The notes beneath the pieces are model-generated. The model was given only the letters and a program-made list of their open reading frames with translations. It was not told the origin of the DNA and ran no database searches. Below are positions 2,525 to 23,081 of a stretch of 32,032 bases of DNA, in pieces. How positions within the stretch are numbered: position 1 is the stretch's first letter; the number at the start of each line of letters is the position of its first letter. Origin of the DNA: a virus; IMG/VR virus record IMGVR_UViG_3300028392_001695, positions 1 to 32,032 of that record. The stretch is one strand, 5' to 3'. Position numbers and translations under genes: made by a program.

Positions 2525-3430
2525 ATGAATAAATTTTCAACTATATTTTTGACTGCACCTATACATAATAGAGCATGGATTCTTCCAGATTGGTTAAAAC
2601 ATATTTTAAACCAGAATTATCCAAAGCAAAATATAGAAATGTATTTTTTAGTAAATAATTGTACGGATAATTCACTCGAAATATTACAGGAATTTAAATT
2701 TAAATATGAAAATGAATATAAAAAAATCACAATAGATATAATGAATAATAAAAACTCTATAAAAAAACAATATAAAGATGAGAGAACTACTGAAACAAGA
2801 GATAAAATGTATCATTGGTTATCTGAATTAAGAAATAAAACATTGGATAAATTTGTAGAATCCGATTGTGATTTATATTTTAGTTTAGATTCTGATATAT
2901 TAATTAAAGAAGATTGTATTACTAGATTTTTAGAACATGAATTTGACTATTTAAGTAATTTAATTTATAATGGTTATAAGCATGAAAATATGGATTATTT
3001 AATACAAGAATCAGATGGAAAAGATTTAGAATCAAAGATTAATAATGCAAGAAAAAAATATATGAATATACTTCAAAATTTTAATTTTGAAACAGCATAT
3101 AAATTTCCAAACGTATTAAAAAGAGTAGGAATAGATAATTACCAACATATATGTAATAATAGAATAAAAAATCCACATAAATGTGATAGAAATTATAAAA
3201 TGGAAGTAGATTATACTGGTGCTATATTTATGGTAAATAGAAAGATTGCAGAGAATAAAAATTGTAGATTTAATTATCATAAAACTGGAGAAGATGAATA
3301 TTTTTGCAGGATGGTTAGAAAAGAAGGTTTCAAAATAGAATGTTTAGTTTCAAGTTTTCAATGTCATATAATGGATAAAGGATTATTGCCATTATATTAT
3401 CAAGGTAAACTAAACATAGAAAATAATTGA
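2525..3430 (+). CDS. Glycosyltransferase, GT-A fold (GT2-like)
   Basis: This 301-residue protein is expected to be a cytoplasmic nucleotide-sugar transferase. The N-terminus (FLTAPIHNRAWILPDWL) and the VNNCTDNS strand-turn around 43-50 fit the donor-binding half of a GT-A fold. A DSD metal-binding motif (122-124) lies in SLDSDIL. The C-terminal TGEDEYFCR (about 254-262) looks like the acidic catalytic segment of such enzymes. No membrane segment is visible. It is the first gene of the sugar cassette. The start is preceded by an AAGGGG ribosome binding site. Donor and acceptor cannot be read from the sequence. The promoter for the next gene overlaps its stop codon, so it may be expressed separately from the rest of the cassette. 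Confidence 0.8.
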   Translation: MNKFSTIFLTAPIHNRAWILPDWLKHILNQNYPKQNIEMYFLVNNCTDNSLEILQEFKFKYENEYKKITIDIMNNKNSIKKQYKDERTTETRDKMYHWLSELRNKTLDKFVESDCDLYFSLDSDILIKEDCITRFLEHEFDYLSNLIYNGYKHENMDYLIQESDGKDLESKINNARKKYMNILQNFNFETAYKFPNVLKRVGIDNYQHICNNRIKNPHKCDRNYKMEVDYTGAIFMVNRKIAENKNCRFNYHKTGEDEYFCRMVRKEGFKIECLVSSFQCHIMDKGLLPLYYQGKLNIENN

Positions 3431-3496: not shown

Positions 3497-4522
3497 ATGA
3501 ATAAAAAAATAAATATTACCTATTGTTTGACTATCCCATTTTTGTTTGAATATCAGCAAAGACCTCATCACATAATGAAATTATTATCTCAGACAGGAGA
3601 TTATAATGTGCATTGGGTAAACAATATACAAGTAAAAGGTAAACGCAAAGATGAAATTAACGAAAATCTTACAGTTTGGCATGATTACGATATATTTAAA
3701 AAAAGAGTTCCAAATATAGATGTTCTATTTTCAAGCTGGAGTAAAACACATATATTAGTAGAAGATTTAAAACCTAAAATAGTTTTATATGATTCATTAG
3801 ATAATTTTCCTGAGAATCAAAATGAAGAAGAGGATATGATTTCTAAAGCAGATATATTATTAACAACATCTCAACCTCTTTATGATTTAAGAAAAAATCA
3901 GCATGAAAACATTCATATGTGTAGAAATGCTTGTTTTCCAGAGTTAGGTGAAAAGCAATATGATGTTCCAGATATTATTACACAAGCTAGAAAAATGGGA
4001 CAACAAATAGTTTTATTCTCAGGTGCAATTGGTAGTTGGGTTGACTTAGAAATATTAGAACATGTATCACATTCAGACAAATATGTTGTTATGATAGTAG
4101 GAAGTTCATTTGGAGTTCCACAAAATTTATTACCTAAGAATTTAGTTTATCTTGGCACAAAGAAATATGAAGAATTACAAGCATATTATCAACATTGTGA
4201 TGTTACATTATTACCATTTAAAAGAAATGTAGTTGCAGATTTTTCTAATCCGATTAAAATGTTTGAGTCATTGAGTTTTGGAAAACCAGTAATAGCAACT
4301 AATATACCTGAAGCTTGTATATTTCCAGATAACACAATATTTGTAAGTAGAAATAAAGAAGAGTTTAGACAAAATGTAAATAAAGCTTTAAAGGTTTGTA
4401 AAAATGAAGAAGTAATTAATAAATGCAAAGAAGTAGCCAGAGAAAACTCATGGAAATCAAGAGTAGATATAATTGACAGAGAAATAAAAAGATTTATAAA
4501 TGCTAAAGGAATTGCGATATGA
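3497..4522 (+). CDS. Glycosyltransferase, GT-B fold (GT4, TuaH-like)
   Basis: This 341-residue protein has the two-domain layout of GT4 enzymes. The N-terminal domain has YQQRPHHIM (19-27), typical of TuaH-like transferases, and VLYDSLDNFPE (96-106). The C-terminal domain has the donor-binding FSGAIGSWVD (174-183) and the EX7E-type region SNPIKMFESLSFGKPVIATNIPE (250-272), with E257 as the likely nucleotide-sugar ligand. No signal peptide or membrane segment is seen, so it should work in the cytoplasm. It has its own promoter and leader and overlaps the next gene by 4 nt (ATGA), showing translational coupling. Donor sugar and acceptor are unknown. Confidence 0.85.
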   Translation: MNKKINITYCLTIPFLFEYQQRPHHIMKLLSQTGDYNVHWVNNIQVKGKRKDEINENLTVWHDYDIFKKRVPNIDVLFSSWSKTHILVEDLKPKIVLYDSLDNFPENQNEEEDMISKADILLTTSQPLYDLRKNQHENIHMCRNACFPELGEKQYDVPDIITQARKMGQQIVLFSGAIGSWVDLEILEHVSHSDKYVVMIVGSSFGVPQNLLPKNLVYLGTKKYEELQAYYQHCDVTLLPFKRNVVADFSNPIKMFESLSFGKPVIATNIPEACIFPDNTIFVSRNKEEFRQNVNKALKVCKNEEVINKCKEVARENSWKSRVDIIDREIKRFINAKGIAI

Positions 4523-5499
4523 AAAAGGTATTATTTCTTAATCCATCAGCACTTATAAGATATGGTATTAGATGGGGATTTGAAAAGTTAAATTGGGAAA
4601 CTTATGTATTATCTGGTGATGATTTTATAGCAAGTAAATCAATTCAATTTCAAGTTGGTACGATAAATAAATATATAGAAACCTATAAAATTGATTTGGT
4701 ATTTGTGGAATTTATGGCAGGATTAGATTATGAATCAATACATAATCTATGTAAATCTAAGGGTATACCATTTTATGTTTGGCTTATAGAGGATGTTCCT
4801 AGCTATACGGATTTTGGTTCTAGTGTAATTGATTGTACCGATTATGTATTTACAACATGTATTGAGTTAATTCCATTTTATAAATCAAGACATAATAGAG
4901 ATTGTAAGTTATTAACATTTGGAGTTAATCCAGAATTTCACAAACCATCAAATCCAAATAAAGATTTGTATAAATCTGATATAGTAGCTATAGGAAACAA
5001 TTATCCATCAAGATATGATAAAATGAAATGGTTCTTAGAAACATTAATAAATCATAAATATGATATAAGTGTATATGGTGGAGCTTGTTGGATAGAAAGC
5101 CATAGATGGTTTAATATATTTAATCACAAAGAATTGTACAAAGGTTATTTATCTTATGAACAGTTACCTGTGATATATAATACTTGTAAAATAGCACTTG
5201 GCATGAATTGTAATGATAAATCTATGACTCAAATGTCAATGAGAATGTATGAATTTATGGGTTGCACAGACAATTCCTTAATGTTATCTTTCTATACTAA
5301 ATCACAAGAAAATGTATTTGGTGATAGAATATATTTACCTAAGAACGAACAAGAAACAATTGATATGGCAAATGAAATTCTGAATATGAAAGACGAATAT
5401 AGAATACAAAAAGCAAAAGATAATAGAGAATGGGTATATAAAAATCATTCTTATATTGATAAAGCTAAAACTGTAATTGATACATTTGAAGGGAGATAA
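4519..5499 (+). CDS. Glycosyltransferase, CgeB/YkvP-like
   Basis: This 326-residue protein resembles the CgeB family of GT-B transferases. Visible features are the N-terminal strand KKVLFLNPSALIRYG, the WLIEDVP motif (88-94) where this family has an Asp-rich Pro motif, SDIVAIGN (153-160) opening the second domain, YKGYLSYEQLPVIY (207-220) and the conserved RMYEFMGC stretch (242-249). In Bacillus, CgeB is linked to glycosylation of the spore crust. In phages such proteins are usually annotated as glycosyltransferases of unknown acceptor. It overlaps the previous gene by 4 nt and runs into the next gene, whose ribosome binding site (GAAGGGAG) lies in its last codons, so the three are translated together. 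Confidence 0.8.
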   Translation: MKKVLFLNPSALIRYGIRWGFEKLNWETYVLSGDDFIASKSIQFQVGTINKYIETYKIDLVFVEFMAGLDYESIHNLCKSKGIPFYVWLIEDVPSYTDFGSSVIDCTDYVFTTCIELIPFYKSRHNRDCKLLTFGVNPEFHKPSNPNKDLYKSDIVAIGNNYPSRYDKMKWFLETLINHKYDISVYGGACWIESHRWFNIFNHKELYKGYLSYEQLPVIYNTCKIALGMNCNDKSMTQMSMRMYEFMGCTDNSLMLSFYTKSQENVFGDRIYLPKNEQETIDMANEILNMKDEYRIQKAKDNREWVYKNHSYIDKAKTVIDTFEGR

Positions 5500-5503
5500 T
5501 AGT

Positions 5504-6175
5504 ATGAAGAAAATTTATATGCTATTTGCTACTATTAGACCTAAGATGTTTAGAGAAACTTATGAACATTGGATTAATACAGCTAAAAACAAAGACAATA
5601 TAATAACAAAAGTAGCTGTGACAAGTGAAGAACAAAAAGAAGAATTATCAGATTTTGATGTAATAGTTGTAAATGATAAAAAAGGTTACAATCATGCTAG
5701 TTGTGTTTTACTTAAAAGCATAGATGTAAATGATGATGATATAATTATATTACCTTCAGATGATTTTTATTCACCTCAAGACTGGGATGAATTTTTATTA
5801 AATCAATTTGAAAACTATGATGGATGTATGTTTTTAAATGATGGCTACCAAAACCCTGATATTAAAGAAGGTATGTTGTCAATAACAATTGCATGTATGA
5901 CATTTGCAACGGTTAAAAAACTTAATAGAAGTTTATTTAGTTCTGCATATAGACATTTCTTTTCTGATACTGAATTATATGCTACTCTAAAAGAATTAAA
6001 TTTATTAAAAGATGATAGAGATAAATATAAAGATGTTATATTTGAACATAAACACCACGTATTAGGTAAAAGAAAACAAGACGAACATGATATTAATAAT
6101 ATGAGCAATTGGGATGTTGACCACAAGACATTTCAAGATAGAATGGCTATGAAAGTAGAAGATAGATTAAAATAG
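5504..6175 (+). CDS. GT-A-like glycosyltransferase (short)
   Basis: The ATG at 5504 (MKKIYMLF) is chosen because GAAGGGAG lies about 10 nt upstream; the earlier in-frame ATG at 5477 would lie inside the previous gene without a site. The protein has 223 residues. FATIRPKMFRETYEHWI and the DDDIIILPSDDFYSP segment (77-91), with an SDD metal-type motif at 85-87, suggest a GT-A fold. The C-terminal part, with an EHKHHVLGKRKQDEHD segment, is charged and could hold the acceptor site. It is shorter than most GT2 enzymes. The function as a transferase is likely but less certain than for its three upstream neighbours. Confidence 0.65.
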   Translation: MKKIYMLFATIRPKMFRETYEHWINTAKNKDNIITKVAVTSEEQKEELSDFDVIVVNDKKGYNHASCVLLKSIDVNDDDIIILPSDDFYSPQDWDEFLLNQFENYDGCMFLNDGYQNPDIKEGMLSITIACMTFATVKKLNRSLFSSAYRHFFSDTELYATLKELNLLKDDRDKYKDVIFEHKHHVLGKRKQDEHDINNMSNWDVDHKTFQDRMAMKVEDRLK

Positions 6176-6190
6176 AGAAAAGGTGATTTT

Positions 6191-6655
6191 ATGAGTCCAA
6201 TAGTAAGTTTTATAGAAGATGAATTATATAAGAAAATCAAAGCATCAGTTCCAATATTTTGTATGGATTTAATAATTAGATGTGATAATAAAATTCTATT
6301 AATTAAAAGAGATAGAGAACCAGCTAAAAATGAATTTTGGACTCCTGGTGGGAGATTTTTATATGGTGAATCTATTAGTCAAGGTGCAGTAAGAAAAGCT
6401 AAAGAAGAAACTGGATTAGATTGTAATTTTATAAAAATGTTAGATATTTGTAATATGTATTTTACTAAAACAGGAAATATGACATCTGATGTTCATACTC
6501 CTAGCTTAATAATAGAAATGGAAGTTGCATTAGGTAATCAAAAAGTTCAATTAGATAATCTTCATTTAGATTATAAATGGGCAGAAAAAAATTCTATTAA
6601 ATATCATTTATATGTACAAGAAATATTAAATAAGGCAGGTTTATCATATGAATAA
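6191..6655 (+). CDS. Nudix hydrolase, GDP-mannose mannosyl hydrolase-like
   Basis: This 154-residue protein has the N-terminal signature of the GDP-mannose mannosyl hydrolases (Gmm/WcaH): a VPIFCMDLIIR strand, LLIKRDREPAKNEFW and then TPGGR. The Nudix box runs from G54 to L76 (GX5EX7R...EEXGU). Its first glutamate after Arg68 is replaced by Lys69, while E72 and E73 are kept. Gmm enzymes also deviate from the canonical box at that place, which supports the assignment. The known reaction is release of mannose or glucose from the GDP-sugar. In E. coli the gmm gene lies beside fcl, as here, where the stop overlaps the start of the fcl-like gene by 8 nt. It could control GDP-sugar pools for the cassette. 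Confidence 0.75.
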   Translation: MSPIVSFIEDELYKKIKASVPIFCMDLIIRCDNKILLIKRDREPAKNEFWTPGGRFLYGESISQGAVRKAKEETGLDCNFIKMLDICNMYFTKTGNMTSDVHTPSLIIEMEVALGNQKVQLDNLHLDYKWAEKNSIKYHLYVQEILNKAGLSYE

Positions 6656-7580
6656 AGATTCTAAAATCTATGTCACAGCAAAAGATGGAATGGTTGGAAG
6701 TGCAATAATAAGAGAATTATTAAAACAAGGATATTCTAATATTATAACACGTTCTAAAAATCAATTAGATTTGTTGAATAAAGAAAAGGTTAAAGAATTT
6801 TTATCATATGAAAAACCAGATTATATATTTTTATGTAGTGCTAAAGTAGGAGGTATTGTCGCAAATAATACTTATCCTGTTGATTTTCTTTATGATAACA
6901 TGATGATAGAATTTAATGTAATTAAATCGGCGTATGAATGTGGTATTAATAATTTAATGTTCTTTGGTTCTAGTTGTATATATCCTAAATTTTGTGATAT
7001 TCCTATTAAAGAATCTTATTTAATGACAGGAAGTTTAGAGTCTACAAATGAAGCTTATGCACTAGCTAAAATAAGTGGAATTAAATTATGTCAAGCATAT
7101 AATAAACAATATGGAACTAAATATATAACAGTTATGCCATGTAGTTTATATGGTGAAGGTGACAATTTCCATCCTGCAAATAGTCATTTAATACCAGCTC
7201 TAATTCAAAAAATACATAATGCTAAAAAAAATAATTTAGATAGCGTTGAACTTTGGGGAACTGGTAATCCATTAAGAGAATTTTTGTATATAGATGATTT
7301 AGCGAATGCCTGTATATTCTTAATGAAAAGACATTTAACTTTAGAAAATGATATAATTAACATTGGAAGTGGAATTGATTATACAATCAAGAATATTGCT
7401 AATTTAATTAAATATATGATAGGTTATGAAGGTGAAATTAAATTTGACACTACTAAACCAGATGGAACATTTAGAAAGTTAATAGATTCAAATATAATAA
7501 AAAGATTAGGATGGAAATATCAAATTTCTTTAAGAGATGGATTAGAAAAGATATATAAGTTCTGGTTGACAAAGGAGTGA
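6648..7580 (+). CDS. fcl: GDP-L-fucose synthase homologue (Fcl/WcaG family)
   Basis: This 310-residue short-chain dehydrogenase/epimerase has nearly all family signatures: SAKVGGIVANN, GSSCIYPK, NEAYALAKISG, NFHPANSHLIPALI, GTGNPLREFLYIDDLA, NIGSGIDYTI and KPDGTFRKL. By alignment to the E. coli enzyme, the catalytic residues S108, C110, Y137, K141 and H180 are present, so 3,5-epimerisation and NADPH reduction of a GDP-4-keto-6-deoxy sugar should be possible. The dinucleotide-binding loop reads AKDGMVG instead of the usual GHRGMVG, so the first glycine of GxxGxxG is Ala11. The expected partner Gmd, which makes the substrate from GDP-mannose, is not in the window. The host or another part of the genome must supply it, or a related GDP-sugar is used. 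Confidence 0.88.
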   Translation: MNKDSKIYVTAKDGMVGSAIIRELLKQGYSNIITRSKNQLDLLNKEKVKEFLSYEKPDYIFLCSAKVGGIVANNTYPVDFLYDNMMIEFNVIKSAYECGINNLMFFGSSCIYPKFCDIPIKESYLMTGSLESTNEAYALAKISGIKLCQAYNKQYGTKYITVMPCSLYGEGDNFHPANSHLIPALIQKIHNAKKNNLDSVELWGTGNPLREFLYIDDLANACIFLMKRHLTLENDIINIGSGIDYTIKNIANLIKYMIGYEGEIKFDTTKPDGTFRKLIDSNIIKRLGWKYQISLRDGLEKIYKFWLTKE

Positions 7581-7585
7581 AAAGG

Positions 7586-8431
7586 ATGCCATTTGTAGAA
7601 ATTTCTCTAGAGGAAATACATAAAAAATTAACAGGTATATATAATGATATGAAGAATGACATTAAAGAATTAAAAATTAAAATGCTGAAAATGTCTTATA
7701 AATCCCAAGAAGGACATCTCGGAAGTTCATTTTCAATCATTGATATTTTATATGTTTTATATAATGGTGTTTTAAATATTGACAAAGATAATGTTAAAGA
7801 TGAAAATAGAGATAGATTTATATTAAGTAAGGCTCATGCAAGTTTAGCATTGTCAGTAATTTTAGAATCTAAGGGATTTATAACACAAAAGGATTTAGAT
7901 GAATTTTGTACTTTTAATGGAAAATTAGGTGGACATTTAAGTAAAAAAGTAAAAGGTGTAGAATTTAGTGGAGGAAGTCTAGCACATGGACTACCTTATT
8001 CTGTTGGTATTGCAAAAGCACTTAAAATTAAAGGCGATAATGATTCAAGAGTTTATTGTTTAATAGGTGATTGTGAACTACAAGAGGGAAGTAACTGGGA
8101 AGCTATGTTATTAGCTAGTCATTATAAATTAGATAATTTAGTTTTAATTATTGATAATAATAAATCTCATAATAAATCTCCACATGTAGATAATATAAAA
8201 TCTAAAATAGAATCATTTGGATTTGATGTAGATAGTATAGATGGACATAATTTAATTGAAATAAAAGGTTCTTTAAAAGATAAAAGTGATAAGCCAAGAT
8301 GTGTTATATGTAATACTATAAAAGGCAAAGGAATTAAAAGAATGGAAAATAATCCTGAATGGCATCATAAATCAATAAAGTCTGAAGAAGAATTAAATCA
8401 ATTAATATTAGAATTGGAAGGTGGCAAATAA
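7586..8431 (+). CDS. Transketolase, N-terminal (thiamine diphosphate-binding) subunit
   Basis: The ATG at 7586 is chosen because AAAGGAG ends about 9 nt upstream. The GTG at 7577 overlaps that site's spacer and the previous stop. The 281-residue protein matches the split transketolase N-subunit in length. It has QEGHLGSS (41-48), SKAHAS (81-86), GSLAHGLPYSVGIAKA (130-145) and the diphosphate-binding motif GDCE...NN (161-192). It should pair with the product of the next gene to bind thiamine diphosphate and Mg2+ at the interface and transfer a two-carbon ketol unit. The two genes overlap by one base (TAATG), so equal synthesis is likely. The sugar substrate cannot be deduced. Neighbouring GDP-sugar and epimerase genes suggest a special sugar rather than the pentose phosphate pathway. 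Confidence 0.9.
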   Translation: MPFVEISLEEIHKKLTGIYNDMKNDIKELKIKMLKMSYKSQEGHLGSSFSIIDILYVLYNGVLNIDKDNVKDENRDRFILSKAHASLALSVILESKGFITQKDLDEFCTFNGKLGGHLSKKVKGVEFSGGSLAHGLPYSVGIAKALKIKGDNDSRVYCLIGDCELQEGSNWEAMLLASHYKLDNLVLIIDNNKSHNKSPHVDNIKSKIESFGFDVDSIDGHNLIEIKGSLKDKSDKPRCVICNTIKGKGIKRMENNPEWHHKSIKSEEELNQLILELEGGK

Positions 8432-9324
8432 TGAGAAAACAATTTGCTTTTACAATGGAACAAATGATGGCGATTGATGATAAAATTGTGATTTTATTAG
8501 GGGATATTGGTGTTCATTCTTTTAAGAATTGTTTTGAAAAGTTTCCCAATAGAACTTATAATATAGGCATACTTGAACAAAGTATGGTGGGAATGGCTAG
8601 TGGCTTAGCATCTGAAGGATTTATACCAATTATTCATACTATTGCTCCTTTCTTAGTAGAAAGAGCATACGAGCAGATAAAACTCGATTTCGCCTATCAA
8701 AAATTAAATGGAAACTTTGTATCAGTAGGAAATAGTTATGATTATTCTGCTTTAGGTATAACACATCAATGTCCAAATGATGTTTCTATATTAAAACAAA
8801 TTCCTAATTTTGAAATTGTATGTCCAGGAAATTCTAAAGAATTTGATATGTTATTTAAACAATCTTATTATAGTGGTAATCCTACTTATTTTAGATTGAG
8901 TGAATATGAAAATTCAATTGAAATAGATGATATTGAATTTGGCAAGGCTAGTATAATTAAAAGAGCAGAAGAATCGAAAGCTACAGTTATAGCAGTAGGA
9001 AATTTATTAGATAAAGTGGTCGAAACTTGTAAAGATTTAGATGTTACCATATTGTATTATCATACAGTAAAACCTTTTGATTATGAAACTTTATTTTATA
9101 ATTGCAATAGTAATAAAATATTATTATGTGAACCATATACAAAAGGTGGGTTAAGTTTTGAAATAATGGAAGCTATGAGAAGTAAAGGTGGATGTATAAT
9201 AGATTATATTGGTGTGGAAAATACATTTACAACTCATTATGGCGACAAAGAAAGTCATGATTTAATTCATGGAATAAGAGAAAATAAAATTAGAGAAAAG
9301 GTGTTGAATTTAATATATGTGTGA
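8431..9324 (+). CDS. Transketolase, C-terminal subunit
   Basis: This 297-residue partner of the preceding protein holds the pyrimidine-binding and C-terminal domains. NIGILEQSMVGMASGLA (44-60) contains E49, the glutamate that activates thiamine diphosphate in this family. SYDYSALGITHQCPND and GNPTYFRLSEYE follow in the expected order. The last third (from about 185) is the small Rossmann-like domain with VIAVGN and LYYHTVKPFD. Length and order match split transketolases. Start at ATG overlapping the previous stop. Its own stop overlaps the start of the epimerase gene by 8 nt, so all three genes form one translational unit. Alternative: a related split enzyme such as a 1-deoxyxylulose-type synthase, but the motifs fit transketolase better. 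Confidence 0.9.
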   Translation: MRKQFAFTMEQMMAIDDKIVILLGDIGVHSFKNCFEKFPNRTYNIGILEQSMVGMASGLASEGFIPIIHTIAPFLVERAYEQIKLDFAYQKLNGNFVSVGNSYDYSALGITHQCPNDVSILKQIPNFEIVCPGNSKEFDMLFKQSYYSGNPTYFRLSEYENSIEIDDIEFGKASIIKRAEESKATVIAVGNLLDKVVETCKDLDVTILYYHTVKPFDYETLFYNCNSNKILLCEPYTKGGLSFEIMEAMRSKGGCIIDYIGVENTFTTHYGDKESHDLIHGIRENKIREKVLNLIYV

Positions 9325-10366
9325 AGAATTAGGCTTATTATTAAAAGATGCGGGATTAACTTTAAAGAATTTAGATTTAAGTGAGTTGAATAATAAAAAG
9401 ATTTTAGTAACTGGTGCTAGTGGTTTGTTAGGAGTTAATTTTTTAAGTTGCTTAAAGTATTTGAGTTTATTAGGAAATAATTTTATAGTCCACGCAACTA
9501 TTTATAGTGAGCCTGAGAATTACTTTAATGAATTAATGAATTATAGATTGTCTAATAAAGATAATAGAGTTTTTAAGGGCGATTTGACTGATATAAATTT
9601 TTGTAATCAGTTAGATAATGATTATGATTATATAATACATTCTGCTACTTATGGACAACCTGCACTATTCTTAAAGAATAGTATAAAAACAATAACATTA
9701 AATACAACTATAACTAATTTGCTTTTACAAAAATTAAATAAAGATGGTAAATTTTTATTTATAAGTTCTAGCGAAGTTTATAGTGGGTGTGAAAGTGACA
9801 AATATAAAGAATCAGATATAGGATATACAAATACTAATCATCATAGAGCTTGTTATATTGAAGCTAAGAGATGTGGCGAAGCTATAGTTAATGAATATAG
9901 AAAGAATGGATATAATGCCAAGTCTGCAAGACTATGTTTAGGGTATGGTATAGGTATTAAATCTAACGACAATAGAGTTTTAAACGAATTTATTAAAAAA
10001 GGATTATTACAAGGGAAAATAGAATTACTTGATGATGGTTTATCTATAAGACAATATGGATATATTACAGATGTAATAGAAATTATGTGGAATATATTAT
10101 TAAATGGAAAAGAAGATGTATATAATGTAACAGGCCAAAGTATATTGACTATAAAAGATTTAGCAAATACAATTGGTAAACTTTTAAATGTTCCAGTTAT
10201 AATACCAGATAATAATGATAATAAATTAAAATCATCGCCAAATCAAGTTAATTTAGATATAGATAGAGTTAAAAAAGAATTTAACAAAACTAAATTCGTT
10301 AATATTAAAAATGGTTTGCAAAGGGTTATAAATTGGTATAGATTAATTTTAGAAAGGAATGATTAA
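9317..10366 (+). CDS. NAD-dependent sugar epimerase/dehydratase (extended SDR)
   Basis: This 349-residue protein has an N-terminal extension of about 27 residues, then the Rossmann loop VTGASGLLG (31-39), an acidic GDLTD segment (88-92), SSSEVYS (150-156) and the catalytic YIEAK (Y180, K184). Further on it has RLCLGYG and IRQYGYITDVIEIMW, typical of nucleotide-sugar 4,6-dehydratases, decarboxylases and 4-epimerases. The second Gly-x-x-Gly loop is intact, unlike in the fcl-like neighbour. Its overlap with the transketolase subunit suggests that it acts on the sugar that the transketolase makes or uses. The exact reaction cannot be told from sequence. It is the last gene of the cassette and is followed after 3 nt by a structural gene. 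Confidence 0.8.
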   Translation: MCEELGLLLKDAGLTLKNLDLSELNNKKILVTGASGLLGVNFLSCLKYLSLLGNNFIVHATIYSEPENYFNELMNYRLSNKDNRVFKGDLTDINFCNQLDNDYDYIIHSATYGQPALFLKNSIKTITLNTTITNLLLQKLNKDGKFLFISSSEVYSGCESDKYKESDIGYTNTNHHRACYIEAKRCGEAIVNEYRKNGYNAKSARLCLGYGIGIKSNDNRVLNEFIKKGLLQGKIELLDDGLSIRQYGYITDVIEIMWNILLNGKEDVYNVTGQSILTIKDLANTIGKLLNVPVIIPDNNDNKLKSSPNQVNLDIDRVKKEFNKTKFVNIKNGLQRVINWYRLILERND

Positions 10367-13748: not shown

Positions 13749-14223
13749 TTCTAATAAAAAAGAATTAGAAGATTTTATGAATGCAACCATCTTAAAAGTA
13801 GCATTAATTGACATTGCAAAACAAGTTGAAGTGTTGATAAGAGATTATATAAAGAAAAATTTATATGATACTTATGAACCCAAAAATTATGTAAGAAGTT
13901 ATGATTATATAAATTCTTTAACAATAGGCAAAGTTAAACCTGATGGAAATGGATTTAGTATAAGACTTTATTTCGATGCAAATAAGATAAAACCTCAAGA
14001 GATGGAAAGAGGATTGTGGAATCGACATATGACACAAAAAGGAGTTCCAACAAATGAGTTTATAGCTGACTGGATTGAAAATGGTGCTACAGATAGCGAG
14101 CATGCTAGGAAACCAATCCATGTTATGGCTAATATCAAAAAGGAATTAGAAGAAACAAAACTTCATGTTAGAGCTATAAAAAAGGCTCTTGGAGAGAAGG
14201 GGTTTAAGGTGGCAATTCTATGA
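13738..14223 (+). CDS. Putative tail-completion/neck protein (HK97 gp10-like)
   Basis: This 161-residue protein has a helical N-terminus (FMNATILKVALIDIAKQVEV), a YVRSYDYINSL segment, a short beta region and GLWNRH followed by ADWIENG. This order resembles the HK97 gp10-type head-tail or tail-completion proteins. The position after the chaperone rather than before the tail-tube gene is unusual for that family, so the assignment is tentative. Its last codons overlap the start of the recombinase gene (ATGA), so both are made from one transcript. Confidence 0.45.
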   Translation: MPSFSNKKELEDFMNATILKVALIDIAKQVEVLIRDYIKKNLYDTYEPKNYVRSYDYINSLTIGKVKPDGNGFSIRLYFDANKIKPQEMERGLWNRHMTQKGVPTNEFIADWIENGATDSEHARKPIHVMANIKKELEETKLHVRAIKKALGEKGFKVAIL

Positions 14224-15182
14224 GTGATAGAAAGTATACAGTATATGCAACAACAGAAAGACTTCATCAAGTTAATCCATTAAATTCTGATTTATGGAAG
14301 AAGTATTTAATGGGAAAGAGAACATTAAGTAAAACTACAAAAGATAGTTATGAATCTGATATAAACCAATTTTTTGTTTATATATTATTGAATCATGATA
14401 ATAAATTCATATTCGATATACCTATGGAAGAAATGGCTGATATATTAGATGATTATATTTGTATGTGTGCTTCTGTATTTGAAAATAATGATAGAAGATT
14501 GGCAAGAAGATTATCTGCAATTTCATCAATCTATTTATACTTTAAAAAGAAAAGAAAAATAAAAGACAATCCTGTTGAATTAATAGAAAGACCTAAAATT
14601 CAAAAGGGAAAGTTTGATATGAAACAAACCTTTTTAACAAAAGAACAAGTTGAAATTATAAGAGAAAAACTAGAAGATTATGGAAAGACTCAATTAAAAT
14701 TATTCTTTGAATTAGGTTTATACACAATGGCTAGAGTTAATGCTTTAGCTAATATAAAAATTGAAGATATAGATTTGGAAAAAAATAGAATAGAAAATGT
14801 AATTGAAAAAGAAGGATATGAAGTCGTTCTTATGTTTAATGAAAAATGTAAAGAATTAATTGTTAAATGGATAGAGGAAAGAAAAGAAGCTGGAATCGAA
14901 TGCGATTTGTTATTTATAACAATTACAAGAGATAAGAAAGGCAAGAATGCAAAATCTTCTATGCAGGAAACATGGATTAAAAGGATAGGAAGTTTTATTG
15001 ATTCTAATTTGCATTGTCACGATTTACGTCATAGTGGAGCTAATTTATTGTATCAAGCAGGTATGCCATTAGAAAGAGTTTCTAAGGCATTAAATCATAG
15101 AGGTACACAAGTTACACAAGACCATTATTTACAAATAAACCATGACGAATTACAAGAGGAATTGGAAAAATTTAGCGTATAA
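14220..15182 (+). CDS. Tyrosine recombinase (phage integrase family)
   Basis: This 320-residue protein has an N-terminal SAM-like core-binding domain (about 22-110) and a catalytic domain (about 135-315). The full active-site set is visible: R172 in TMARVNALAN, K197 in the beta-hairpin, H267 and R270 in HCHDLRHSG, H293 in LNHRGT and the nucleophile Y303 in DHYLQ. It should cut and rejoin DNA at short inverted sites through a 3'-phosphotyrosine. It overlaps the upstream tail gene by 4 nt and has no promoter of its own, so it would be made with late tail proteins. That is odd for an integrase. No matching recombination sites or excisionase were seen nearby. It could be a resolvase, an invertase or a captured mobile gene. 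Confidence 0.9.
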   Translation: MSDRKYTVYATTERLHQVNPLNSDLWKKYLMGKRTLSKTTKDSYESDINQFFVYILLNHDNKFIFDIPMEEMADILDDYICMCASVFENNDRRLARRLSAISSIYLYFKKKRKIKDNPVELIERPKIQKGKFDMKQTFLTKEQVEIIREKLEDYGKTQLKLFFELGLYTMARVNALANIKIEDIDLEKNRIENVIEKEGYEVVLMFNEKCKELIVKWIEERKEAGIECDLLFITITRDKKGKNAKSSMQETWIKRIGSFIDSNLHCHDLRHSGANLLYQAGMPLERVSKALNHRGTQVTQDHYLQINHDELQEELEKFSV

Positions 15183-17155: not shown

Positions 17156-17475
17156 AAGCTGAAAAAGATTTGAACGTAGATAATTCTTGTATCTCAACCT
17201 GTTTAAATGGTAGAAAAAATAGAGAAAAACAAGGAAGAGCAGGAAATTATATGTTTAGATTATATGAAGATAATTTTCCATTAAATATTGAACCATATAA
17301 AACATCAAGATGTAAAATTATATTAATTTATAAAAATGATGTAATTATAGAAGAATGTAATTCTTTAAATGAAGTTTCTAAAAAATATGAAATATCAAGA
17401 ACAAATCTTTGTAGATATATAAAAAAAGATTTTGAAAAAAAATACAAAAATATTTATAATTTTAAATATAAATAA
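17134..17475 (+). CDS. Endonuclease C-terminal NUMOD1 region in the -1 frame
   Basis: In this frame the sequence reads KIYNSALEAEKDLNVDNSC and then ISTCLNGRKNREKQGRAGNY, which completes the NUMOD1 helix-turn-helix-like repeat begun by IIAYNLDGYFL in the frame above. A second, weaker repeat follows (IILIYKNDVIIEECNSLNEV, then SKKYEISRTNLCRYIKKD). The TTG at 17170 could serve as a separate start but has no good ribosome binding site. This is therefore best read as the end of the endonuclease, reached by -1 frameshifting, or as the severed end of a frameshifted pseudogene. Confidence 0.6.
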   Translation, partial: KIYNSALEAEKDLNVDNSCISTCLNGRKNREKQGRAGNYMFRLYEDNFPLNIEPYKTSRCKIILIYKNDVIIEECNSLNEVSKKYEISRTNLCRYIKKDFEKKYKNIYNFKYK

Positions 17476-18117: not shown

Positions 18118-18425
18118 TAATAAAAAATGGCTCGAGGATATAGTAATATATCTATGGAATCTCACTATATCGGTGAACATCCTACTGAAAAGTTCAGAGG
18201 ACAATACCGAGGTAAGGATTTAAAATTTAAATTCGCACCGTAACGACTACACGTGGGACATCCTGAATTATCAGGATGAAGATATAGTCTAAACTGTATA
18301 GTAATATACAGAAAAATGGTCGAGTGTAAAGACACTCAGTTTAATTTATTAAACGATAGAAGCACCATTTTCGCTATGATTATTAATCATAGTCAGTAGC
18401 CTTATTAGGTGAAAGTAATAGTTTG
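18118..18425 (+). ncRNA. Group I intron 3 of the tape-measure gene
   Basis: This 308-nt intron has no reading frame. P1: CGGGT (18113-18117) with GCTCG (18130-18134), with a U-G pair at the splice site. P7: GACTA (18245-18249) with TAGTC (18285-18289). P8: CATCCTGA (18259-18266) with TCAGGATG (18271-18278). The 3' domain (about 18316-18425), with a GGTCGAGTGTAAAGACACTC hairpin and AGTCAGTAG...GAAAGTAA, closely matches the 3' domain of intron 1. The last base is G18425. Confidence 0.9.
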
Positions 18426-21400
18426 GATGTCGCAGGCACAGCACTTAAATCAGTAATGTCAAGGATTTTCCAAGTAGGACAAGAAGGCGTTGATGATGCT
18501 GGGAAATCCGAGAAACTACTAAATCAACTTGGAATAACAACTAGAAAAAGTGCAACAGAATTTAAAACATTTGATGATATACTTAAAAGTGTACATGATA
18601 AATTCCCTAGTTTAACATCAGTTCAACAACAGAATTTATTGCAACAACTCGCAGGAATCCAACATGTAGGCAAATTAACTTCGTTAATGAATAACTGGGA
18701 TATAGCAACACAAGCAACAACGAAAGCATTAAATTCACAAGGATCAGAAATAAATGAAAATGAAAAATATCTAAATAGTATACAAGGCAAATATCAAACA
18801 TTAAAAACTACAGTTGATGGGTTATATGACAAATTAATTTCATCAGACGCTTTAAAATCAACAGTAACGGGAATGACAGATGTTTTAAATGTTGCTGATA
18901 GAGTTACAACTGTATTGGGTGGTTTAAATACCATTATATTAACTGTTGTTTCTAGTTTAGGAATATTAAAAGCACAAGGAATAATTAATTTCTTCACTAG
19001 TCTTGTAACATCAGTTGCAGGAGCAACATTTTCTTTGGCTGGATTAGGCACTGTACTCACAGCTATAATAAGCCCAGTGGGTTTATTAATAACGGTATTA
19101 GGTCTAGCAACAGCAGGAACAATTGCTTACGTTAATAGTACACAAAAAATTAAAGAACAAGCTGAATTAGCTACTAAATCTCAAGATGACTTTAACAAAA
19201 GTATAAAAGAGTTCACTGAAACTTTAGACCCAAATAAATTAAATGACGCCTCTACTGCTTTAGAAAAACTTAAAGAAGCGACTAATTATAAAGAAGCTAT
19301 CGAAAACGTAAAAGGTTTAGAAGCTGAAATAAAAAATCTTCAAGAAGCACAATCTAAAGAGATTATGCCAGAAGATATAAGTTCTATTAACGAAAAAATT
19401 AAAGAAAAAACAGCTTTATTACAAGAACAAAAAAAGATTATAGATGATGTAGCAGGTAAAGAAAAAGATTATGCACATCAAAAAGAAATATCTACAGCTA
19501 TAGATTATCAATCTATACAGGCAAAAGCTAAAACTGTAGCTCTTAAAGTTCAAGAAACTAATGAAAATTATAATCTAGTTCAAAGTTATAAGAATGTATA
19601 TGATAAATTATCTGCAAATAAAGAATTAACTGAGGATGAAAAGGCTTTAAACGAAAAGTTATTGCAACAATATCCTGAATATAGAACTGCATTAGGAGAT
19701 AAAGCTAAAGCATTAGGAGTGAATTATACTGCATTAAGTGAAAATTTAGATATACAAAAGAAAGTAGCTTTAGCAGAATTTAATAGTGCAAAAGTATCAG
19801 CTCAACAGGAAGTTATAAAAACAAATAATTTAATTGACGAAACTAAAAAAAGAATAGAAGCAATTCAATCTGAAATAAAAGCCAAAAGCAATCTGGCATC
19901 TGCTCAGGATAAATTAGAAGATAGTTTAGGTAAATCTTTTGAGATGATGCAACAGAAAACTCTTGATTGGGAAAAGTCTTTGGGTATAGTTTCTGACAAA
20001 AAGATAATAGATTTTACAACTCCAGGAAGAAAAAATGAAAATGAACAACTTAATCAAGCATTAGCAGATAACCAAAATTTATTAGACAAACTTGAATTAA
20101 GTAAATCTTCTAATAAGATATTGTCTGAAGCAAATATAAAAGACGTTTTAAGTATATCGGCAGATTCTAAAGCAAAAGGTTATAATACTCTTGAAGCTGA
20201 ACAAACAAGAAAAGAGCAAGAAAAAGCTGATAAAAAAGCAGCACAAGAAGCAGAGAGAGAAAGAAAAAAACAAGAAGCTGAAGCAGAAGCATATAGAAAA
20301 AAAGCAGAACAAGAAAAATATAATTCTGAAAGAGAAACGGCATTAGGAACAAAAGTAGATTTAGCTAGAGAAGCAGGATATGATAAATTAACACAAGCAG
20401 TAAAAAGTTATGATGTAGCATTATCTGAAAATCAAGCTAATCAGGAAAAAGACAATTTGTCATTGCAGGATAAATTATCTTTAATGGAAGAAGAAAAAGA
20501 TTTATTAAAAAGTAAATGGAAAGCCTATAATGATTTAATCTGGCAAAAAAGACAAGAGCGTGAAGAAACGGCTAAATCATTAGCTCAATTTGGAGTTGGT
20601 GTTGGTGGAAAAGGTGAATCATCTTATCTTACAAATGTAGATGAATCAGCAAAAGCACAACAAGAAAAAATTAGAAAATCGGCAGAAGATATACATGATG
20701 AAGCTTCTTTAAGAGCATATAAAACTGAAGTTGCAAGAGGAGAAGTTTTAAAAAGCTTAGTAAAAACCTTTGGCGATTTAAACCCTGAAATATCAGGTTA
20801 TAGTATAAATTTAAATAAAATAACTGGAACTATAAATAAATTAAATCCTGAAGTTGAAGTAGCAAATCAAGAGTTTAAAGATTTTGATAAAACCATAAAA
20901 TCTAATAATGAAAACATGGCGACATTAAAAGATAATTATGATTCAATATCTGATACTGATTTTGATACTAAGATAAAAGCGGGAAATGATTTACTTGATG
21001 CACAGACTTCTAGTTTAGATGTTGTAAATAAAAAGTTATCAGAATATGATGCTAAAATAAAATCAGCAATGACAACTGAAGCTAAGGAATTATATCAAGC
21101 TGAAAAAGATAAATATACTTCAACTGGAGCAGGAATATCAAAAGATATTGTATCTACAAAAAAAAATATATCACAGTTAACTTTTGAAAAAGGCGAAGCA
21201 CCTTTCAAAGAATCGGAAAAAGCATATGAAAAAGCGAGTCAAGATTTAGAATATAAATATGAGATGATAGACGAAAAGAACTATAAATCAAGAGCGAGGA
21301 ATTTAAATGTTCAAGCTAGTGTTTTAAAAGGTGAAACTAAATCTATATCTAGTGAAATAAAAAGACTCAAAGATGATTTAGCTAAAACAGAAGATAAAGA

Positions 21401-23081
21401 TGAACAGGCTAGAATAAATACAAGCATTGCAAATAATGAAAAACTTCTACAAGAAAAGAATGTTAAAATAAAAGATTTAACTAAGTCTGCTTTAGGAGAA
21501 ACTATATCTGGTTCATTTAAAAAATCTGATGACGAAGCTAAAAAATTTGACAAAACAATTAGTGGATTAGATAATAGTTTTCAATTATTAAGTGATAATG
21601 ATTTTGTAGGTAAGGGTAATATCCTTTCCGAAAAAATAAATAAAACTAATACTGAAATATCTAAGCAACAAAAAGAATTAACAGATTTAAATAGCATAAC
21701 GGATAAATCAGTCCTTAATTCACAAGAATATAAAGATAAATTAGAAAATCTTAAAAGTTCACTTGAAGCTAATAAAATAAGCGTAAAAGGATATAATGAT
21801 GAACTTAAAAGTTTAAATAAAACTCAAGAAGATAACATTCAAAATTTAATAAGAACTGGAATTGAAGCTCAAAAAAATATTGAAGAATCTCCTATTAAAT
21901 CTAAAGAAGAAGAATTAGCAACACAAACTAGAGTTATGGAGAGAGAATTTCATAAAGAAGAAGTAAAATTAAAACAGGATTTATTAAATTTAGAAAAAAA
22001 AATATATGGAACAACTAAAGCCAATTATGAAGATAACATTAAAAATATAACAACAGATTTACAAAATCAAATTGATGCTATGCAAACACAAGCAGATTTA
22101 CAAAAACAACAAGAAGAAAGGTCTGCTAAAATACTTGAAATCGAAAAGGAAAAGTTAAACCTATCTAATTTACAAGCTGAAAAAGACGTAAGAATTTTTC
22201 AAGATGGTAAATGGCAATGGGTGGCTGACCCTAAAAAGGTTACTGAACAAAAAGATAAGATTACTAAGCTAACTGATGATTTTAATAAATCTGAAGCTGA
22301 CAATACTTTAAAATCACAAGAAGATGCTTTAAAGTCTAAAATTGATAATTATAATAAAGAACTAGAAATTAAAAATAAAAATTATGATGACCAATCTAAG
22401 GCTTTGGAGGATTTGTTACAGAAATATAAAGATAGATGGGAAACGGAAAAATACGATAGAACCATTGCAATAGAAGATGAAAGAATAGCATTTGAGAATA
22501 GATATAAAAATCTTGACGTTATGGTTGCAAATTCTTTAGACCAATTAAAGAAAACCTATGGAACTAAATGGAATGAAATTTTAACAGTTGTAACAGATAA
22601 AACATCTAAAATTCAAATACAATATAATACCTTACAAGGATATTCAAATGTATTGACAGGAGTTGATGTTTCAACAGTTGCTACAAAAAGTGGAAATACA
22701 GGAGTTTCACAAGCTGAATTTAATGCACAACAAGAGAAAAACAAAGAAGCACAATCTGGAAAACATGGAGTAAGATATAATGTAGATGGAACTATTCAGG
22801 CTTATGCTACAGGTGGATTAAACGAAACTACTGGTATACATATGCTACATGGAACAAAAGAAAAACCAGAATTAGTATTAAATTCAGGCGACACACAAAA
22901 TATGTTAGAAATGTTAAAAGTTGCAAGACAAACAAATGTAAGTCAATCAAATATAGGTTTAAATTCAACTTCTACAACTTCAACAAAAGTTGAAAATTAT
23001 AATATAAATGTAGGCGAAGTAGTAACAAATGATGCAACAGCTTTTATACAAAATTTAAGGAATTTAGCAATAAAGAAATAA
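18426..23081 (+). CDS. Tape-measure protein, exon 4
   Basis: This exon encodes 1,551 residues and the stop. It begins DVAGTALKSVMSRIFQVGQ, completing the conserved domain. A hydrophobic stretch (about 18900-19130: IILTVVSSLGIL, SLVTSVAGATFSLAGL, ISPVGLLITVLGLATA) marks the membrane-active segments usual for tape measures. The remainder is long coiled coil rich in Lys/Glu/Gln, with a diverged internal duplication around FDKTIKSNNEN (about 20880) and FDKTISGLDNS (about 21550). The C-terminus (YATGGLNETTGIHMLHGTKE, then KPELVLNSGDT) is the typical tape-measure end. The TTG at 18423 is intron sequence, not a start. Tail length should be proportional to the spliced length of about 1,876 residues. 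Confidence 0.93.
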   Translation, partial: DVAGTALKSVMSRIFQVGQEGVDDAGKSEKLLNQLGITTRKSATEFKTFDDILKSVHDKFPSLTSVQQQNLLQQLAGIQHVGKLTSLMNNWDIATQATTKALNSQGSEINENEKYLNSIQGKYQTLKTTVDGLYDKLISSDALKSTVTGMTDVLNVADRVTTVLGGLNTIILTVVSSLGILKAQGIINFFTSLVTSVAGATFSLAGLGTVLTAIISPVGLLITVLGLATAGTIAYVNSTQKIKEQAELATKSQDDFNKSIKEFTETLDPNKLNDASTALEKLKEATNYKEAIENVKGLEAEIKNLQEAQSKEIMPEDISSINEKIKEKTALLQEQKKIIDDVAGKEKDYAHQKEISTAIDYQSIQAKAKTVALKVQETNENYNLVQSYKNVYDKLSANKELTEDEKALNEKLLQQYPEYRTALGDKAKALGVNYTALSENLDIQKKVALAEFNSAKVSAQQEVIKTNNLIDETKKRIEAIQSEIKAKSNLASAQDKLEDSLGKSFEMMQQKTLDWEKSLGIVSDKKIIDFTTPGRKNENEQLNQALADNQNLLDKLELSKSSNKILSEANIKDVLSISADSKAKGYNTLEAEQTRKEQEKADKKAAQEAERERKKQEAEAEAYRKKAEQEKYNSERETALGTKVDLAREAGYDKLTQAVKSYDVALSENQANQEKDNLSLQDKLSLMEEEKDLLKSKWKAYNDLIWQKRQEREETAKSLAQFGVGVGGKGESSYLTNVDESAKAQQEKIRKSAEDIHDEASLRAYKTEVARGEVLKSLVKTFGDLNPEISGYSINLNKITGTINKLNPEVEVANQEFKDFDKTIKSNNENMATLKDNYDSISDTDFDTKIKAGNDLLDAQTSSLDVVNKKLSEYDAKIKSAMTTEAKELYQAEKDKYTSTGAGISKDIVSTKKNISQLTFEKGEAPFKESEKAYEKASQDLEYKYEMIDEKNYKSRARNLNVQASVLKGETKSISSEIKRLKDDLAKTEDKDEQARINTSIANNEKLLQEKNVKIKDLTKSALGETISGSFKKSDDEAKKFDKTISGLDNSFQLLSDNDFVGKGNILSEKINKTNTEISKQQKELTDLNSITDKSVLNSQEYKDKLENLKSSLEANKISVKGYNDELKSLNKTQEDNIQNLIRTGIEAQKNIEESPIKSKEEELATQTRVMEREFHKEEVKLKQDLLNLEKKIYGTTKANYEDNIKNITTDLQNQIDAMQTQADLQKQQEERSAKILEIEKEKLNLSNLQAEKDVRIFQDGKWQWVADPKKVTEQKDKITKLTDDFNKSEADNTLKSQEDALKSKIDNYNKELEIKNKNYDDQSKALEDLLQKYKDRWETEKYDRTIAIEDERIAFENRYKNLDVMVANSLDQLKKTYGTKWNEILTVVTDKTSKIQIQYNTLQGYSNVLTGVDVSTVATKSGNTGVSQAEFNAQQEKNKEAQSGKHGVRYNVDGTIQAYATGGLNETTGIHMLHGTKEKPELVLNSGDTQNMLEMLKVARQTNVSQSNIGLNSTSTTSTKVENYNINVGEVVTNDATAFIQNLRNLAIKK

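Follow-up and report, generated by a model that had tools for sequence, protein, structure and literature searches.

A split transketolase and a short-chain dehydrogenase/reductase as the candidate core of a phage-borne sugar-branching cassette

In yersiniose A branching, the enzyme YerE is followed by the reductase YerF. YerE, a thiamine diphosphate (ThDP) enzyme, uses pyruvate to attach acetaldehyde to CDP-3,6-dideoxy-4-keto-glucose, according to the available sections of a 2025 review (PMC12247030). The same sections describe alpha-keto acid dehydrogenase 2 enzymes, which are of the E1 type and add two-carbon ketone branches, some of them later reduced, and list 13 known candidates, all from Streptomycetes, for split transketolases that are proposed to form hydroxyacetyl branches, none of them tested in vitro. 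Here we analyse three genes of the virus record IMGVR_UViG_3300028392_001695, a linear record of 32,032 bases that was taken whole and is called the window below. On its plus strand the ThDP-binding half of a split transketolase (TKN, 7586..8431) and the pyrimidine-binding half (TKC, 8431..9324) are followed by an extended short-chain dehydrogenase/reductase (SDR) that we name SDR8 (9317..10366), a predicted branch-ketone reductase. With moderate confidence we read this trio as the central part of a cassette, carried by phages, that would place a two-carbon branch on a GDP-linked 4-keto-deoxyhexose.

Each of the described systems shares part of this arrangement. In miharamycin and amipurimycin formation in Streptomyces a split transketolase is proposed to transfer hydroxyacetyl to a sugar ketone (PMC12247030, sections as above); these are antibiotic clusters, whereas the phage cassette has GDP-sugar companions, a dedicated SDR and a place in phage genomes. 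YerE and YerF are alike in that a ThDP enzyme adds two carbons at C4 of a 3,6-dideoxy-4-keto nucleotide sugar (same source), but YerE belongs to the decarboxylase superfamily and uses pyruvate and a CDP-sugar, whereas the window has a split transketolase and relatives with GDP-type companions. A single-chain decarboxylase or acetohydroxyacid synthase of the YerE type was ruled out for the window protein, which consists of two chains with matches to Transketolase_N and Transket_pyr. The alpha-keto acid dehydrogenase 2 branching enzymes of aldgamycin, kibdelomycin and trioxacarcin, compared by domains alone, have the domain make-up of an E1-type pair found in some phage relatives; the window differs from them in being of the transketolase type. 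Literature searches found no paper on phage-encoded branching transketolases, although subscription papers lay outside their coverage and this is no proof of absence; a paper on a Fonsibacter phage (PMC6811365) does mention transketolase. Within the literature searched, the cassette is so far an undescribed, recurrent phage variant of ThDP-dependent sugar branching.

Active sites of the transketolase pair and SDR8

The open frames run from 7577/7586 to 8431, from 8431 to 9324 and from 9317 to 10366; TKN and TKC overlap by 1 nt (TAATG) and TKC and SDR8 by 8 nt. The ATG at 7586 is favoured over the upstream GTG at 7577 as the TKN start because a Shine-Dalgarno-like AAAGGAG precedes it, and TKN then has 281 amino acids. 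TKN matches Pfam Transketolase_N (119.6 bits), TKC matches Transket_pyr (78.9 bits) and SDR8 matches Epimerase (114.4 bits); against Transketolase_C, TKC scored 21.9 bits, under the 25.9 cut-off. The window retains GDCE (161) and IDNN (189-192) in TKN, E49 in TKC, and Y180 and K184 in SDR8. An earlier note on this DNA had reported the overlaps, coordinates and catalytic motifs of the trio, all of which held when frames and residues were rechecked, and had tied a split transketolase to a sugar SDR, a link that the Pfam domains and the recurrence of the trio in viral contigs support. For both halves the closest PDB sequence is the split transketolase of Carboxydothermus hydrogenoformans (6YAJ/6YAK), the best match of TKN being the N chain of 6yak (E 2.4e-51). 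That enzyme has the same two-chain split, but as read from the alignment 6YAJ retains three substrate residues that are lost in the phage family, His, Asp and Arg (461, 469 and 520).

Residues of viral relatives were compared by alignment with E. coli TktA. Of the 49 transketolase-type clusters described below, 46 contributed one TKC each and 48 one TKN each; TKC under 150 bits and TKN under 120 bits were left out. The ThDP/metal site and the catalytic glutamate of canonical transketolases are present: D155, E160 and N185 are kept in 48/48 TKN, and E411 (catalytic; E49 of the window TKC), H473 and F437 in 46/46 TKC. Donor-site and other histidines of TKN are also retained (H66, H100 and H261 in 47/48 each, H26 in 46/48). 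In contrast, the canonical substrate-recognition residues are missing. At position 461, 44/46 have G and none has H; at 469, 43/46 have L and none has D; at 520, 37/46 have E and none has R. The window equivalents are TKC G100, L108 and E158. Conservation of key residues among relatives, a point raised by the earlier note, thus extends to the ThDP, donor-site and catalytic positions but not to the equivalents of H461, D469 and R520. The Ser385 equivalent is a gap in one alignment and G in another, the loop being shorter and the alignment shifting there; positions around 358, 381 and 385 align uncertainly and were left out of the reading.

The available part of a study of Lactobacillus transketolase gives His28, His263, Ser384, Arg357, Arg520, His461 and Asp469 as substrate residues (PMC4601599). 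In E. coli transketolase the exchanges S385Y/D469T/R520Q brought a gain of non-phosphorylated aromatic aldehydes as substrates (PMC6310800, available part). Since the catalytic and donor residues are kept, the equivalents of H461, D469 and R520 are lost and the S385Y/D469T/R520Q enzyme offers a precedent, the viral transketolase family looks built for a non-phosphorylated substrate and a ketol donor.

SDR8 carries TGASGLLG at 32-39 (TGxxGxxG), Y180 and K184 (YxxxK), all invariant in 7/7 aligned sequences and as expected of an extended SDR. Ser152-Glu153 is likewise invariant in 7/7, and the Asp/Glu or Asp/Lys pair of 4,6-dehydratases is absent. The structure model (predicted local distance difference test, pLDDT, 84.2; predicted template modelling score, pTM, 0.88) has a helix at 3-16 before the first strand. 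Its best structural match is CDP-6-glucitol synthase (8v4h; Z 32.2, root-mean-square deviation 3.0, 318 aligned, 24% identity), followed by human UDP-xylose synthase (Z 30.5, deviation 2.8, 301 aligned). According to the available part of its description, CDP-6-glucitol synthase reduces the ketone of CDP-6-fructose and has a helix preceding the first strand, and the Asp pairs of dehydratases are contrasted with the Ser/Glu of GDP-4-keto-6-deoxymannose reductase (PMC10918830). The Campylobacter jejuni CDP-6-D-glucitol synthase (8V4G/8V4H) thus resembles SDR8 in the N-terminal helix before the Rossmann fold, the YxxxK motif and the Glu of its Ser/Met-Glu pair, but it has 24-26% identity to SDR8, uses CDP rather than GDP and acts on linear CDP-6-fructose. 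Because of the glucitol-synthase match, the N-terminal helix and the invariant Ser-Glu, the modelled fold favours a reductase and not a 4,6-dehydratase; a decarboxylase or oxidase activity is possible.

Recurrence of SDR8 with a ThDP enzyme in viral contigs

Single-sequence scans of viral contigs with the window TKC, SDR and virion protein returned no relatives; alignment-based scans succeeded. The first viral-contig scan gave three loci, all ordered TKN-TKC-SDR, and alignment scans gave 75 loci with TKC and 78 with the SDR, on contigs partly common to both. Since the trio recurs in other contigs, its adjacency is not due to chance. The SDR8 set comprises 155 viral loci including the window, with 132 frames of at least 120 bits that fall into 64 clusters at 90% identity, two of which (L117 and L232) are the parts of a single broken gene. 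SDR8 matches below 120 bits (including a broken gene in L111/L233) were dropped before counting, as were sub-threshold matches to pyridoxal phosphate (PLP)-type enzymes, GDP-mannose 4,6-dehydratase (GMD) and GDP-L-fucose synthase (GFS). The viral label of most relatives rests on IMG/VR, and phage genes were checked in the flanks of some, which are phage with certainty: clamp loader and head maturation protease genes in L083, tape measure and distal tail genes in L085, and a phage-type DNA ligase and tRNA nucleotidyltransferase in the L087 record.

The comparison of genome neighbourhoods for transketolase-SDR pairs that the earlier note had proposed placed 49 of the 64 clusters near a split transketolase. 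Another 11 have an E1-type ThDP pair (E1_dh, PF00676, plus Transket_pyr, PF02779), four have neither by the rule used and none has both. TKC lies within 60 nt of SDR8 in 41 of the 49 transketolase-type clusters and overlaps or touches it in 39; the E1-type pair is immediately 5' of SDR8 in 10/11, and one E1-type half in the L178 group was found 7.2 kb away. Among the four remaining clusters, L214 is cut by the contig end beside TKC and L237 has TKC 3 kb off; in L207 and L208 SDR8 stands beside GMD, an RmlC-like gene and a PLP gene with His at the PLP-lysine position, with no ThDP pair in the retrieved flank. The set found by the SDR scan, for which no transketolase information was used, gave a similar picture: 77 of its 78 loci have SDR8 at 120 bits or more, and in 51 of the resulting 57 clusters a ThDP half lies no more than 1 kb away (41 TKC, 10 E1-type). 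Among control loci, the best 80 of at least 540 viral loci matched by a bacterial GMD profile and not a random sample, a transketolase pair occurred in 0/80, SDR8 in 2/80 and an E1-type pair in 3/80. The tail-module placement that the earlier note called unexpected is real, but the cassette is no isolated oddity, as it recurs across phage sequences.

Acceptor, proposed pathway and alternatives

Companion genes point to GDP-sugars, as supported by their family assignments in transketolase-type, E1-type and remaining SDR8 clusters. GMD is present in 21/49, 6/11 and 3/4 of these, respectively, a His-type PLP 3-dehydratase in 25/49, 10/11 and 2/4, a GFS/ColC-like gene in 22/49, 3/11 and 0/4, and an RmlC-like gene in 15/49, 4/11 and 2/4; at least one of GMD, His-type and GFS genes occurs in 39/49, 10/11 and 3/4. 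Histidine in place of the PLP lysine is a mark of ColD and RfbH. The His-type call was read at the alignment column that holds Lys in aminotransferase-like members, and 82/90 PLP-type genes of the relatives have His there. The companions of L083 are named for the nearest NCBIfam family, all scores being under the cut-off: gmd 381 bits (cut-off 415), rmlC 108 (156) and RfbH-like 181 (423). GMD, His-type 3-dehydratase and GFS/ColC-like genes beside many phage relatives recall the colitose pathway, which differs in that the phage cassettes insert a ThDP C-C ligase and SDR8, and in that the window is without GMD and ColD.

Sequence shows the gene order, the recurrence, the pattern of residues, the fold and the exchange of the transketolase for a ThDP enzyme of another type. 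We infer a pathway whose chemistry, donor, acceptor, step order and target would be as follows. A phage or host GMD would supply GDP-4-keto-6-deoxymannose, from which, in many relatives, a ColD-like His-type enzyme would remove the 3-hydroxyl, and a GFS/ColC- or RmlC-type epimerase may reset C5, or C3 and C5. A donor without phosphate, perhaps hydroxypyruvate, would then give up hydroxyacetyl to the split transketolase, which would place it on the C4 ketone to form a tertiary alcohol, and SDR8 would reduce the branch ketone. Neighbouring glycosyltransferases would finally transfer the sugar to its target, most likely a virion protein, as suggested by the position of the cassette among tail genes and glycosyltransferases, with the host surface as the alternative. 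Across several phage lineages, we tentatively see a modular cassette, in which a constant SDR8 would be combined with a swappable ThDP carboligase acting on GDP-4-keto-deoxyhexoses, a transketolase for a hydroxyacetyl or an E1-type enzyme for an acetyl branch.

Several observations weigh against this pathway. The 32-kb window holds no GMD or ColD gene. Among 14 records of relatives lacking GMD near the cassette, six have a GMD-like gene of at least 360 bits elsewhere, all under the 415-bit cut-off. A ColD-like gene was found in 5/15 records searched, and ColD was not found in the 128-170 kb records L087, L124 and L104. Because ColD is absent from the window and from several large records of relatives, the acceptor may differ from phage to phage and need not be a 3-deoxy sugar. 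In the retrieved flank of six transketolase-type clusters (L085, L088, L104, L116, L131 and L213), as in several others, there is no GDP-sugar companion beyond SDR8. The window itself has GDC in its ThDP motif (8066-8077, TKN GDCE), versus GDG in the other 47/48 viral relatives. By profile score SDR8 is closer to UDP-glucuronate decarboxylase (159 bits) than to the reductase of CDP-6-fructose (142 bits). Lastly, no transketolase is reported to have been shown in vitro to accept a ketone in the review sections cited above (PMC12247030).

The SDR8 score bears directly on an alternative order of events, which we consider unlikely, in which SDR8 would act first, oxidising or oxidatively decarboxylating a nucleotide sugar to the ketone acceptor; the transketolase would then add the two carbons, and the branch ketone would be left or reduced elsewhere. 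The profile of SDR8 is nearest by score to UDP-xylose synthase, the two families have the Ser-Glu pair and an Arg equivalent in common, and for miharamycin an oxidoreductase is proposed to create the keto function ahead of the split transketolase (PMC12247030, same sections). However, the 4-ketone is already made where GMD and the 3-dehydratase are present, and the best structural match of SDR8 is a reductase.

The earlier note had left open a branched or a chain-extended sugar. For the latter, the transketolase would add two carbons to the aldehyde of an open or oxidised sugar, and although aldehydes are the substrates of ordinary transketolases and several substrate residues are retained, we judge this improbable. 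Two points favour branching: the companions yield 4-ketosugars rather than aldehydes, and an E1-type ThDP pair, a kind of enzyme described as ketone-branching, can stand in the place of the transketolase. A conventional pentose-phosphate transketolase, encoded by an auxiliary metabolic gene, would agree with the Pfam transketolase domains and with a nearest solved relative that is a split transketolase, but it appears very improbable given the loss of the H461, D469 and R520 equivalents in 46/46 relatives, the constant SDR8 partner and the glycosyltransferase context; the changed substrate-recognition residues of the family also argue against the pentose-phosphate-only role considered in the earlier note.

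Dozens of compact phage-borne split-transketolase candidates with a fixed partner and a predictable acceptor make the ketone-branching question directly testable. If the branching pathway is true, these phages would make branched GDP-sugars by a transketolase route, and this would be a source of unusual glycans for their particles. Such phage-made branched sugars are suggested here and could bear on phage adsorption, immune evasion by phages and tertiary-alcohol biocatalysis.

Setting of the cassette and further loci

The sugar cassette lies on the plus strand after virion genes and ahead of the tape measure gene, with tail-region genes from 10370. It comprises, 5' of the trio, an Anp1/GT-A-type glycosyltransferase (2525..3430; Pfam Anp1, 46 bits), a GT-B glycosyltransferase (3497..4522; PF13692/PF00534), a GT-B glycosyltransferase-like gene (4519..5499; PF13524, 38.8 bits), a 232-amino-acid protein (5477..6175), a Nudix hydrolase (6191..6655; 48.5 bits with Pfam) and a GDP-L-fucose-synthase-like epimerase/reductase of the GFS/ColC type (6648..7580), all on the plus strand. 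The last scores 448 bits with NF047922, under the 500-bit equivalog cut-off, and the Nudix protein is weakly similar to GDP-mannose mannosyl hydrolase (NF011963, 38.9 bits against a cut-off of 146). An Anp1-type relative of 30% identity (blastp) lies directly 3' of the SDR in viral locus L085. The 232-residue protein, a glycosyltransferase by guess alone, matched no Pfam family at 0.01, with only a chance-level match at 0.07, and its structure model (pLDDT 54.6) was too poor for use; a related protein is encoded in the L085 cassette (42%) and two copies in that of L124 (38% and 46%).

A virion protein encoded at 723-1505 has relatives in Geobacillus virus E3 (37.5% identity) and in Lactococcus phages of about 125-133 kb (31.6%), so the window is probably part of the genome of a large siphovirus infecting a Bacillota (Gram-positive) host. 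Directly 5' of the sugar cassette, an HNH/homing-endonuclease-like gene (1638-2387) might have aided cassette mobility. A tyrosine integrase-like gene (14220-15182) lies within the tail module. The tape measure gene is apparently interrupted, as 15230-16123 matches the start of PhageMin_Tail and 18423-23081 the rest of a tape measure family; an HNH-like frame (17170-17475) separates the two. At gathering thresholds no Rfam family, hence no intron, was found in the window.

In a TKC tree built by a quick method from 93 rows, the window pairs with L087 (SH-like approximate likelihood ratio test, SH-aLRT, 87, not starred), and both fall inside a set of 34 virus and two bacterial rows (SH-aLRT 94, not starred). 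L124 carries a window-like cassette (7243-9897) with the two copies of the 232-residue gene, GMD, GFS and an aldolase-like gene, and its TKN starts with an altered, non-histidine donor motif. Six further loci (L141, L147, L148, L149, L155 and L159) lack SDR8 but have an E1-type pair, or part of one, with a transketolase pair farther away, and are perhaps further branching cassettes. INPHARED matches to TKN (37 records) and TKC (27) were set aside, their identities being below 60% and many being short, unannotated, host-DNA-like contigs; Listeria phages LM 4-11-1 and LM 4-14-1 are among the many short phage-deposited contigs with a housekeeping-like transketolase and the look of host DNA.

A TKC scan of genomes matched 102 candidates, of which 80 were kept. 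Three of these loci have the same SDR type by the transketolase pair, adjacent in L007 and L024 and nearby in L009, and so provide the bacterial sugar-locus counterparts that the earlier note had mentioned. Many gut Clostridia loci combine a transketolase pair with RfbF-, RfbG- and RfbH-type (motif HHMTMGEGG) CDP-sugar genes, names that denote family resemblance and come in part from NCBIfam for L011, and with a second transketolase pair. In four checked members of a gut subgroup (L005, L006, L012 and L013) N, Q, Q and F stand in place of the donor histidines, which suggests that these pairs use another donor; they were handled as a separate subgroup. The polysaccharide loci L006, L008 and L010-L033 of gut bacteria have two split transketolase pairs, CDP-sugar genes and an HMG-CoA-lyase-like aldolase.

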